32,757 nucleotides of DNA, taken from NCBI GenBank assembly GCA_025056095.1, contig JANWVW010000007.1, positions 1 through 32,757 of the forward strand. Reading direction: 5' to 3'. Below, in pieces: positions 4,085-32,757 of the stretch. The position numbers and the translations under genes were made by a program. The number at the start of each line of letters is the position of its first letter. Within the stretch, counting starts at the first letter, position 1. The notes under the pieces were generated by a model. That model saw nothing but the letters and a program-made list of their open reading frames with translations, ran no database searches and was not told where the DNA came from. The stretch comes from Bacteroidia bacterium (GTDB lineage Bacteria > Bacteroidota > Bacteroidia > JANWVE01).

Positions 4085-4254
4085 ACAAAATCATTCCACA
4101 ATAGTTGGACTATTGCAGAAAACCTACGGAGAAAAATAAAAATGTATCCGTAGATACAAATTTGGTAGTTTTCAATGTCAGTTTTTCGGTTTAGGAAAGT
4201 TTGTTTTGTACTTAGTTTTTTTGAAAAGGATTTGTGAGGAGTTTTTAGTTTAAT

Positions 4255-4390
4255 GCGTGAGGCATGCGAAGGGTGGGCGTTAGCCCAGTGCGGAGCGAAG
4301 CGAAGCACCGAAGCGAAAGCGTAGCCCGAAGCACGCCGACCTTGCCCGCGTGAGCGCAGCGAAACGCGGGCAAGGGCACGCCCAAAAAAA
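4255..4390 (-). repeat. Dispersed GC-rich hairpin repeat, copy C
   Basis: Full-length copy on the minus strand: TTTTTTTGGGCGTGCCC end, stem 1 with arms CTTGCCCGCGT / ACGCGGGCAAG, the GTCGGCGTGC box, stem 2 TGGGC-TAAC-GCCCA, and the GCATGCCTCACGC end. Stem 1 differs from copy A on both arms with pairing kept. It lies 36 bp beyond the stop codon of the glycosylase gene. Confidence 0.92.
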
Positions 4391-4426
4391 TAGACCTCAA
4401 TTAGAATTAAACAAAGCAAACTAAAC

Positions 4427-16113: not shown

Positions 16114-16513
16114 CAATTCAGATAGAAAAATAGGAATAATTATTTTAGGTTGATTTCAAAAAAATTTGCAAACTTCGCAGCGGTTTAATGATCATGTTCT
16201 TGTAGGAGGGACTTTGCATTTAGATTATTATTAGCTTTTATTTAGTACCATTCATCGTGATGTAAAGCTTATTCTTAAAGTTATTTTTTTGGGCGTGCCC
16301 CTTGCTGACGCAAGGGTCGGGGCATTCCGCACGTAGCCCGTAGCACGCCGACCTTGTGGGCATGAGCGCAAGCGAAACGCCCACAAGGGCACGCCCAAAA
16401 AAATTATATTACATTCGTTCTTTTAATTTATTTAATTACAGCCAATGCTTTTCCACAAAAAGAATCATCAAAAAATCGTGCAAATTGGTTAATACAAGCA
16501 GTTTAGTAAAAGT
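16114..16513. other. Intergenic region between the sigma gene and dnaX
   Basis: About 400 bp holding repeat copy D (16284-16403). The AT-rich DNA on both sides shows no gene, RNA gene or terminator that I can recognise. Confidence 0.7.
16284..16403. repeat. Dispersed GC-rich repeat, copy D (double-ended composite)
   Basis: Both ends are the T-run/GGGCGTGCCC end, in inverted orientation. The left part has stem CCCTTGC-TGAC-GCAAGGG and GTCGGGGCATTCCGCAC. The right part, read on the minus strand, has stem CTTGTGGGCGT / ATGCCCACAAG (one G-T pair), then GTCGGCGTGC. The GCATGCCTCACGC end is absent. It is nearly the same as copy E in reverse, apart from the stem arms. Confidence 0.9.
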
Positions 16514-21543: not shown

Positions 21544-21662
21544 TTTTTTTGGGCGTGTCCTTGCCCACACTTCGCTTGCGCTTGTGTGGGCAAGGTCGGC
21601 GTGCTACGGGCTACGTGCGGAATGCCCCGACCCTTGCGTCAGCAAGGGGCACGCCCAAAAAA
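21544..21662. repeat. Dispersed GC-rich repeat, copy E (double-ended composite)
   Basis: Same composite as copy D in opposite orientation. The left end is GGGCGTGTCC with stem CTTGCCCACAC / GTGTGGGCAAG, then GTCGGCGTGC. The right end, read on the minus strand, has GGGCGTGCCCC with stem CCCTTGC-TGAC-GCAAGGG. The stem 1 arms equal those of copy A, not D. It lies between converging genes, 10 bp after the DUF5686 stop and 37 bp from the stop of the FAD oxidase. Confidence 0.9.
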
Positions 21663-29969: not shown

Positions 29970-30086
29970 TTTTTTGGGCGTGCCCCTCGCTTGCGCTCGG
30001 GTCGGCGTGCTACGGGCTACGCTATCGCTTCGGTGCTACGCTGCGCTCCGCACCGTGCTAACGCACGCCCTCCGCATGCCTCACGC
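29970..30086 (+). repeat. Dispersed GC-rich hairpin repeat, copy F
   Basis: TTTTTTGGGCGTGCCC end. Stem 1 is reduced to about 3 bp (CCC/GGG) but the loop TCGCTTGCGCTC is kept exactly. GTCGGCGTGC follows, then stem 2 CGTGC-TAAC-GCACG and the GCATGCCTCACGC end. It lies 55 bp after the TonB receptor and 5' of the restriction-modification genes, in direct orientation with copy G. Confidence 0.92.
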
Positions 30087-30180
30087 AAACTAAATCACAA
30101 AATTTGATAATCTGATACAAATATAACCACTTTCTTTCCCATCAGTAGCAGCATTACACATTTTCAAGCTAAATTATGTG

Positions 30181-30199: not shown

Positions 30200-30982
30200 A
30201 TGAATTATTGGACTGCATTAAGTATTGAGTACGCAAATCAAAAATCTTACTTAGATGACTTATTTCAGGTTTACCCTACTATTCCCGAAGGAATCAGAGA
30301 AATTGAGCAAGAAAATTGGAGTAGAATAGAGTTGGCTTTCAAAAGTCAGGACAACGTAGCACTCATTAAGGAACTTCTAAATTTGGACTTATTTCCTATA
30401 AAAGATAGCTATGTGGCTTTTCTTAAACGAGATATTGGGTCAATAGAACGAAATCCTAAAACCGTAAATAGAATTTGTGGTCGGTTATATGAAATGGGGC
30501 TCGAGAAAATCTTTGAAAAGTGTACTGAACCAAAAGAAACTAATCGGCAAATTGGACCACTTTTTCGTAGATGGCTAAATAAAAAGGCATTAGGGATACA
30601 ACCTGTAAGTTTGAAAAAATTCATAAGTTCAGAAGAGGACGCAATCTTAGATGGTAGTGATTATGAATTAGCTGAATTTAGTAGAAAGGTTTTGAATTAC
30701 AATAGAGAAAAAGGGCTTGATTTTGTAGCAAGGTTTAACAAAAAGTATATCATAGGTGAAGCTAAATTTCTTACAGATTTTGGAGGGCATCAAAATGCAC
30801 AGTTTGAAGATGCTATTAAAACCTTAGAAACGCCAGATGTTAAAGCCATTAAAATTGCAATTCTTGACGGAGTATTGTACATAAAGGGAAACCACAAAAT
30901 GTACCGAGATTTAACCACTAAATACAAAGAATACAATATCATGAGTGCCTTATTATTGCGTGATTTTTTGTATCAAGTTTGA
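30200..30982 (+). CDS. Type II restriction endonuclease (probable)
   Basis: 260 aa. The function is assigned from a PD-(D/E)XK-like core late in the chain, Asp174 (GLDFVARF), then Glu187-x-Lys189 (IIGEAKFLTDFGGHQ), together with the adenine methyltransferase gene 34 bp downstream. The GEAKF-x-TDFGGHQ pattern recurs in type II enzymes I have seen, possibly Tsp45I-like, but I cannot fix the recognition site. The N-terminal 150 residues are helical and presumably bind DNA. The catalytic triad looks intact, so the system may be active. The pair is flanked by repeat copies F and G. Confidence 0.8.
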   Translation: MNYWTALSIEYANQKSYLDDLFQVYPTIPEGIREIEQENWSRIELAFKSQDNVALIKELLNLDLFPIKDSYVAFLKRDIGSIERNPKTVNRICGRLYEMGLEKIFEKCTEPKETNRQIGPLFRRWLNKKALGIQPVSLKKFISSEEDAILDGSDYELAEFSRKVLNYNREKGLDFVARFNKKYIIGEAKFLTDFGGHQNAQFEDAIKTLETPDVKAIKIAILDGVLYIKGNHKMYRDLTTKYKEYNIMSALLLRDFLYQV

Positions 30983-30993
30983 TAATTTTTGTT

Positions 30994-31001
30994 TATTTTT
31001 G
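30994..31001 (+). promoter_or_regulatory. -7 element of the methyltransferase gene
   Basis: TATTTTTG within the gap between the two genes, 15 nt before the ATG at 31017. A separate methyltransferase promoter would let methylation precede cleavage when the genes enter a new host; that role is inference. Confidence 0.45.
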
Positions 31002-31016
31002 TACAAGTCAAAAGCA

Positions 31017-32150
31017 ATGTTTTTACAATACCCTAACAAAAAGACATTACAAGAAATTTACGCACAAATTCCTGACAGCCAATGGATAAAACAGAACGAT
31101 GTAGAAAGTAAGAATAAGCTAATTTTTGGTGAGAACCTACTCGTAATTAAAAACCTGATAGAAAAACAAGGATTTGTAGGAAAGATTGATTTAATTTACA
31201 TTGATCCTCCTTTCGCTACTAATAGTATTTTTACTTTTTCTGATGAACGGACTAGCACCATTAGTGCTGAAAAAAATGGAAAAGTAGCTTATTCAGATAA
31301 GTTGCAAGGCGCTGCTTTTTTAGAATTTTTGCGAGAGAGGTTAATTTTGTTAAAAATGCTTTTGTCGGAGCAAGGCTCTATTTACGTACATACCGACTAC
31401 AAAATAGGGCATTATGTTAAAATTATAATGGACGAAATTTTTGGCATAGAAAATTTTAGAAATGACATTACTCGTATTAAGTGCAATCCTAAAAATTTTG
31501 CCAGAAAAGCTTACGGTAATATCAAGGATTTGATTTTATTCTATTCAAAAGGCAAAAATCCTATTTGGAATGAACCTAAGCTTCCATACACAGAAGAAGA
31601 CAAAATCAAACTATTTCCTAAAATAGACAAAGATGGCAGGCGTTACACTACTATTCCTTTACATGCTCCAGGAGAAACCCAAAAAGGTTATACTTCGCAG
31701 CCATTTAGGGGGTTACTTCCACCTAAAGGTAGGCACTGGCGGACGGATGTAAATACCTTAGAACTTTGGGATAAGCAGGGACTTATTGAGTGGTCAGATA
31801 CAGGCAATCCTCGTAAGAAAATTTATTTAGATGAGCAGGAAGGAAAAAGGGTACAAGATGTTTGGGAGATGAAAGACCCTCAGTACCCTGTATATCCGAC
31901 AGAAAAAAATGCGGAGTTATTAAATCTTATCATCAGAACGTCTTCAAATCCAAATAGTTATGTATTAGATTGTTTTTGTGGTTCAGGGACTACCTTAAAG
32001 GTAGCTCATTACTTGGGCAGAAACTGGATAGGCATAGATCAATCTGAACAGGCTATAAAAGTTTGCATTCAGCAGTTAGATAATCTGACAGAAGACATAT
32101 TTACCACAAAACCAACCTATGAAAAAATAAGATGCGAGGTAATCAGCTAA
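31017..32150 (+). CDS. DNA adenine N6-methyltransferase of a type II R-M system (beta class)
   Basis: 377 aa from the ATG at 31017; the frame is open to an ATG at 30945, but that would overlap the nuclease gene and the -7 element. Motif IV DPPF at 63-66 (LIYIDPPF) comes before the AdoMet-binding motif I FCGSGTT (from about 320), the order of beta-class N6-adenine or N4-cytosine methyltransferases; DPPF favours adenine. It methylates the site cut by the partner nuclease. The middle region (about 165-300, with PFRGLLPPKGRHW) is the target-recognition part. The stop TAA is followed directly by the T-run of repeat copy G. Confidence 0.92.
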   Translation: MFLQYPNKKTLQEIYAQIPDSQWIKQNDVESKNKLIFGENLLVIKNLIEKQGFVGKIDLIYIDPPFATNSIFTFSDERTSTISAEKNGKVAYSDKLQGAAFLEFLRERLILLKMLLSEQGSIYVHTDYKIGHYVKIIMDEIFGIENFRNDITRIKCNPKNFARKAYGNIKDLILFYSKGKNPIWNEPKLPYTEEDKIKLFPKIDKDGRRYTTIPLHAPGETQKGYTSQPFRGLLPPKGRHWRTDVNTLELWDKQGLIEWSDTGNPRKKIYLDEQEGKRVQDVWEMKDPQYPVYPTEKNAELLNLIIRTSSNPNSYVLDCFCGSGTTLKVAHYLGRNWIGIDQSEQAIKVCIQQLDNLTEDIFTTKPTYEKIRCEVIS

Positions 32151-32286
32151 TTTTTTTGGGCGTGCCCTTGTGGGCATTCGCTTGCGCTCATGCCCACAAG
32201 GTCGGCGTGCTACGGGCTACGCTTTCGCTTCGGTGCTGCGCTTCGCTGCGCACCGTGCTGACGCACGCCCTTCGCATGCCTCACGC
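32151..32286 (+). repeat. Dispersed GC-rich hairpin repeat, copy G
   Basis: Full-length copy. TTTTTTTGGGCGTGCCC end; stem 1 12 bp (arms including CTTGTGGGCAT / ATGCCCACAAG, 32166-32177 with 32190-32201) around the loop TCGCTTGCGCTC; GTCGGCGTGC; stem 2 CGTGC-TGAC-GCACG; and the GCATGCCTCACGC end. It begins at the base after the methyltransferase stop codon. Direct orientation with copy F. Confidence 0.93.
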
Positions 32287-32326
32287 ATACAGCATTAAAC
32301 CTGTTCTTAACCTTTAATTTATCAAT

Positions 32327-32614
32327 ATGGAAATTACCGAAAAACAAATTCAGGAATGGAAACAAAAATACGGCGAAGTCTATGCTGTTACCGTAGAAGA
32401 TAAAATCGGCTATCTTCGCAAGCCTGACCGTAAAATCCTCAGCGCAGCAAACGTATATGCCAATGACAGCATCAAGTACAATGAGTTTATTCTCAAAAAC
32501 TGCTGGTTAGGCGGAGACACCTCACTGATGGACGAGGACGCCTGCTTTTTTGCTCTGTGCAAAAAGCTCGGCGAACTCATTGAAGTCAAAGAAGCGGAAC
32601 TAAAAAAAATTTAA
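32327..32614 (+). CDS. Small phage-like protein, candidate tail-assembly chaperone (0-frame product)
   Basis: 95 aa, acidic and lysine-rich, no signal peptide. Features: WKQKYGEV, an LRKPDRK segment, NCWLGGD and a Lys/Glu-rich C-terminus (VKEAELKK). This resembles small proteins encoded in tail regions of Bacteroidota phages (from memory; not searched). The C-terminus falls on an A8 run and stops at once (ATT TAA), while the -1 frame stays open to the window edge, as in phage genes making a short and a frameshifted long product. It lies 40 bp after repeat G and may begin a prophage or phage-derived cluster to the right. Confidence 0.6.
   Translation: MEITEKQIQEWKQKYGEVYAVTVEDKIGYLRKPDRKILSAANVYANDSIKYNEFILKNCWLGGDTSLMDEDACFFALCKKLGELIEVKEAELKKI
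32602..32608 (+). promoter_or_regulatory. Candidate -1 ribosomal slippery site A AAA AAA
   Basis: In the 0 frame the codons are CTA AAA AAA ATT TAA, so the heptamer A AAA AAA is correctly phased for a -1 slip. After slipping, reading continues AAT TTA AGT GAA. A short hairpin AAGTG-AAACC-CACTT (32613-32627) starts 4 nt downstream and could stimulate it, though it is weak. Confidence 0.5.
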
Positions 32615-32757
32615 GTGAAACCCACTTCAAACCTGATACCCACTGGATAGTTCTTATAGATACCCTTTTGCAGTATTATCTCCACCTTGACCCACACGCT
32701 CTCTCCGATGACGAATGGGCAATGAAGTTCAAAGCATTAGAATACATACGAAAACAG
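32608..32757 (+). CDS. -1 frame extension of the phage-like gene (partial, runs off the window)
   Basis: 50 codons from the slip site to the last base without a stop and without an ATG until 32722. The product NLSETHFKPDTHWIVLID, followed by an acidic stretch, ends in DEWAMKFKALEYIRK, which looks like real protein. No credible independent start codon exists, so a fusion with the preceding 95-aa frame by -1 frameshift is the simplest reading; a natural or sequencing indel in the A8 run is the alternative. Confidence 0.5.

Follow-up and report, generated by a model that had tools for sequence, protein, structure and literature searches.

A tail assembly chaperone gene at the edge of a Bacteroidia contig, almost certainly read by a programmed -1 ribosomal frameshift

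The gene at the right-hand edge of this contig raises two questions: does it encode one protein or two, and does it mark the beginning of a prophage? The window analysed is a stretch of 32,757 nucleotides, and is the whole of contig C7 in a 3.05-Mb assembly of a Bacteroidia bacterium comprising 397 contigs. Its last open reading frame, of 95 amino acids, ends CTA AAA AAA ATT TAA, with the run of eight A residues (A8) at 32602-32609 and the stop codon at 32612-32614. An initial annotation proposed that this was a lambda G/GT-type tail assembly chaperone gene with a programmed -1 frameshift, and that the window ended at the entrance of a prophage or tail-like particle cluster. Its description of the 95-aa frame ending on A8, of the in-phase heptamer A AAA AAA and of a -1 frame open to the window end was confirmed. 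The features referred to below are as follows.

32327..32614, + strand: 0-frame ORF, 95 aa; belongs to phrog_19076 and is the putative short, G-like form of the chaperone.
32602..32608, + strand: slippery heptamer A_AAA_AAA inside A8, followed by one sense codon (ATT) and then the TAA stop.
32608..32757, + strand: -1 frame extension (T-like domain), 50 codons; matched by the family profile and ending with the contig.
32613..32627, + strand: weak 5-bp hairpin (32613-32617 with 32623-32627), not supported as a stimulator.
32149..32288, + strand: copy of a dispersed GC-rich host repeat, in place of a tube gene; about 137 bp, with about 40 copies in the genome.
12-122, 2021-2106, 4253-4391, 16283-16405, 21544-21615 and 29970-30090: other copies of the repeat in the window.

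After the slip site the -1 frame is translated as NLSETHFKPDTHWIVLIDTLLQYYLHLDPHALSDDEWAMKFKALEYIRKQ up to the end of the contig, which contains neither a stop codon for this frame nor the beginning of the tape measure gene. Approximately 5% of mononucleotide shuffles of this stretch are also open for 50 codons, so openness alone is weak evidence. The 0-frame protein matches phrog_19076 along its full length (residues 1-95, E = 1.7e-34), and 131 distinct loci encoding it were gathered by scanning viral contigs and genomes. A second domain related to the -1 frame of the window is present in 126 of the 131, the window included, and in every one of the 126 it is in the -1 register, ie never in the 0 or +1 frame. 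The single continuous frame that the initial annotation had set against its own reading was not seen among these 126 loci. The five loci without a second domain are L112, which is cut by a contig end, and four distant relatives, L029, L033, L034 and L039. A profile made from ten relatives, with the window left out, matches the -1 stretch of the window with E = 5e-19 and has no other match in any of the six frames. Beyond the 0-frame stop, substitutions at the first, second and third codon positions of the -1 frame number 570, 394 and 1048, respectively, in 44 pairs that share sequences, so that the counts are not fully independent. The excess at the third position indicates that the -1 frame encodes a protein under purifying selection. 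A DNA-level search against phages gave no match, and the chaperone gene was not found in two genomes of the same genus (G001 and G002).

The family libraries gave little guidance on function. Neither Pfam nor NCBIfam gave a consistent function for the family, phrog_19076 is listed in PHROGs without one, and PF08890 (the XkdN-type chaperone) has no match in this genome. LIC_10177 matches 15 of 77 family members, with a best value of 4e-5. The family profile had no significant match to the sequences of solved structures, and a fold search was therefore needed. An AlphaFold2 model of the 0-frame protein, built from a 77-sequence alignment, had a pLDDT of 94.6, and the best and only convincing PDB match found by Foldseek was 3FGX (E = 2.7e-3, probability 1.00), with which the predicted structure agrees along its whole length; the fold assignment rests on this one template, at a moderate TM-score of 0.64. 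3FGX is Rbstp2171, a phage tail assembly chaperone which shares the core of HK97 gp13 (PMC9603447). The likeness to the HK97 gp13, YqbN and Rbstp2171 group is thus one of predicted structure, whereas sequence identity to 3FGX is only about 20% and the libraries searched assign phrog_19076 no function.

The gene order in the relatives is that of a contractile tail. A tail tube gene lies upstream in 119 of 120 loci, the window being the sole exception, a sheath gene upstream in 104 of 104, and a tape measure gene downstream in 109 of 117, with hub genes farther on in the clusters. A terminase gene is present at L043, and some of the loci are phages or prophages. One relative is in the Winogradskyella phage Peternella_1 (Winoviridae), an isolated, Mu-like myovirus (PMC8776804), in which the order is sheath, a hypothetical gene, the chaperone homologue and, directly downstream, the tape measure. 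That homologue, Peternella1_46, is annotated 'hypothetical protein' and ends GTA AAA AAG CGT TAG; its slip site, A_AAA_AAG, is one codon ahead of the stop, and the -1 ORF that follows is unannotated. Unlike the window, Peternella_1 is a complete phage. The completed plasmid pAT6 of Aureibacter tunicatorum carries a tail cluster in which the slip site, AAA AAA ATT TAA, is identical to that of the window.

The tail clusters L040 and L041 comprise genes for sheath, tube, chaperone, tape measure and fibre-like proteins, but inspection of the ORFs in 20 kb revealed none for heads or terminase; they may be tailocin-like elements of Bacteroidota. Plasmid pAT6 has two DUF2586 sheath genes and, at the position expected of the tape measure, no more than an ORF of 209 aa. 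Distant chaperone-like ORFs at L197 (7546-8016) and L198 (13679-14149) appear by eye to combine the two domains in a single frame; each has a second chaperone-like gene, without a -1 extension, no more than about 8 kb away, and 20 kb of sequence revealed no long ORF recognisable as a tape measure.

The conserved -1 domain, the tail-gene neighbours and the 3FGX-like fold together point to a lambda G/GT-type chaperone, so that this part of the initial annotation is strongly supported, and two proteins are almost certainly made from the gene by a programmed ribosomal slip. In full, we consider it to be a gene from which contractile-tailed phages of Bacteroidota make their tail assembly chaperone, with a -1 slip giving short and long forms, and probably present here with its tape measure as a remnant or cassette; the probability of this reading is put at about 0.9. 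Most ribosomes would terminate at the TAA at 32612-32614, giving the 95-aa short form, and a minority would slip back one base on A_AAA_AAA, bypass the stop and yield a longer product that carries an additional domain at its C-terminus. On the model of lambda gpG and gpGT, the tape measure protein would be coated by many copies of the short form and a few of the long one, and recruitment of tube subunits would fall to the latter. The -1 extension, the position of the slip, the predicted fold and the gene order of the relatives are established by comparison, whereas the occurrence of slippage, its rate and the partners of the two forms are inferred.

In lambda, ribosomes reach the -1 extension by slipping shortly before the 0-frame gene ends (PMC5009743). 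The present family likewise has a short gene before the tape measure and a -1 extension near the 0-frame end, together with an in-phase slippery sequence near the stop and a predicted chaperone fold. The position between tube and tape measure is found in the relatives; in the window the repeat lies upstream, and on the downstream side the contig ends. The family differs from the lambda system in having contractile (Mu-like) tails, in lacking any sequence-family link to gpG/gpGT in Pfam, NCBIfam or PHROGs, and in its slip site, which is mostly NNA_AAN and not a two-codon heptamer like G_GGA_AAG.

At 116 of the 126 loci the slip region reads A_AAN, one sense codon and a stop, and the window uses the same codon position as the A_AAN tetramer of the family. 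In 36 loci the -1 frame extends only 4 codons upstream of the 0-frame stop, so the shift is confined to those codons, ie to the AAN site. Across all 126 loci, the second codon ahead of the stop is AAG in 93, AAC in 13, AAA in 11, AAT in 2 and another codon in 7. The codon preceding it is GTA in 38, GAA in 34, AAA in 32 and another in 22; the class of this P-site codon (AAA, GTA, GAA or other) has changed at least 28 times on a tree of the 0-frame protein, which was built without the slip region and is poorly resolved. The canonical A_AAA_AAR heptamer is found in just 31 loci, the window among them, and exactly A_AAA_AAA in six including the window. That sequence gave 10% frameshifting in an experimental cassette derived from another gene (PMC3711429). 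Other sites are G GAA AAG (34 loci), G GTA AAG (18) and G GTA AAC (9).

Slippage of a single tRNA at NNA_AAG has been described for E. coli, where IS1222 uses G_CGA_AAG (PMC5009743). The same process would account for the G_GTA_AAG and G_GAA_AAG sites, at which re-pairing of the P-site tRNA is poor, although these, unlike the IS1222-type cases, lie in a tail chaperone gene. The E. coli tRNA-Asn is said to shift only by double slippage (PMC5009743), with which the nine G_GTA_AAC loci are at odds. Since the P-site codon has changed many times, one-tRNA slippage would take the place of the classical two-tRNA heptamer. We therefore propose, tentatively and at less than even odds, that the signal is reduced to A_AAN, a single sense codon and then an in-frame stop, without a supported RNA structure, and that one tRNA slips, perhaps aided by the nearby stop, even at G_GTA_AAC.

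The small hairpin to which the initial annotation drew attention can be drawn on paper, but it is no stronger than in dinucleotide shuffles of the sequence (z = +1.13). Family-wide, the mean z was -0.84 compared to -0.34 in control stretches, a difference too weak to sustain a stimulatory role, and the hairpin was rejected as a frameshift stimulator. An Rfam search of the flank found nothing.

The A8 run invites two other explanations of the overlap. RNA polymerase could slip on it, and transcripts with an extra A would then yield the long form; realignment during transcription has been linked to poly-A runs longer than seven, and Thermus dnaX uses A9 (PMC3711429). Most relatives, however, shift at the same codon without a long run, as at the G GAA AAG, G GTA AAG and G GTA AAC sites counted above, and polymerase slippage is not expected there, so we regard it as improbable. 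Homopolymers are also prone to sequencing error, and in an assembly as fragmented as this one an indel might have split one continuous gene. The same register at the same codon in all 126 loci, and likewise in an isolated phage and a completed plasmid, led us to reject such an artefact, which is left with next to no probability. The -1 ORF could also be a separate downstream gene that has a start codon of its own, and some ATG, GTG or TTG does precede the conserved motif in 86 of the 126 loci. Against this, ATG accounts for only 36, and 40 loci have no such codon at all. In the window the sole ATG of the -1 frame sits within the conserved domain (...DEWAMKF...); besides it, the one codon resembling a start is a TTG immediately ahead of the YY motif. 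The claim that the -1 frame lacks a start of its own thus held for ATG ahead of the conserved motif, but has to admit that TTG; a separate gene is considered very improbable.

Frameshifted tail chaperones are already known, and the additions made here are the family assignment and the slip-site rule. A function is given to a phage protein family, phrog_19076, which is listed without one in the libraries, and tail-chaperone frameshifting is extended to Mu-like contractile phages of Bacteroidota. The family offers more than 100 natural slip sites, at the same codon position and in hosts beyond the usual E. coli models, on which one-tRNA and two-tRNA slippage could be compared experimentally, and the isolated phage Peternella_1 is a possible laboratory system. 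No paper combining tail assembly chaperone, frameshift and Flavobacterium was found among the papers searched.

The answer to the second question is different. Where all 119 relatives have the tube gene, the chaperone gene of the window adjoins the host repeat, and the initial annotation's idea of a prophage or tail cluster beginning at the window end lacks support. The repeat is 63% GC, compared to 37% for the window, has strong self-folding and is often intergenic. The sequence between the repeat and the chaperone gene is unique; any misjoin could therefore lie only within the repeat, which must truly border the gene. The sole other tail gene found in the assembly is the C-terminal end of a tape measure at the start of contig C170 (E = 2e-17). 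Immediately after its stop codon comes another copy of the repeat, inverted, and host genes lie beyond that; the middle portion of the tape measure gene is absent from the assembly. Searches of the assembly for sheath, hub, tube, gp25, PF04965 and PF04984 found none. Because the assembly holds one chaperone and one tape measure, we infer that the C7 and C170 pieces come from the same copy.

The two genes are probably an isolated chaperone-tape-measure unit between inverted copies of the host repeat, ie a remnant or an acquired cassette and not part of a complete prophage. The alternative, a full prophage or tail-like particle with its remaining genes on contigs missing from the bin, would be compatible with the frameshift, and has in its favour that the middle of the tape measure has been lost from the assembly and that nearly all relatives are within full tail clusters. 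Such an element would have sheath, tube, hub and baseplate genes, which are not found in this assembly, although it may lack contigs. The unit abuts the repeat at both ends, on the left in C7 and on the right in C170, where host genes follow, and since a misjoin is possible only inside the repeat, the repeat borders both genes; we therefore think a complete element rather unlikely. For the remnant or cassette, the failure to find sheath, hub, tube, gp25 and PF04984 genes in the assembly makes it uncertain whether the chaperone is expressed and functional in this organism. Upstream of the chaperone gene, at 30200-32150, a Tsp45I-type restriction enzyme (PF06300, 1.6e-124) overlaps an N6/N4 DNA methylase, and this restriction-modification pair is bounded by copies of the repeat on both sides.
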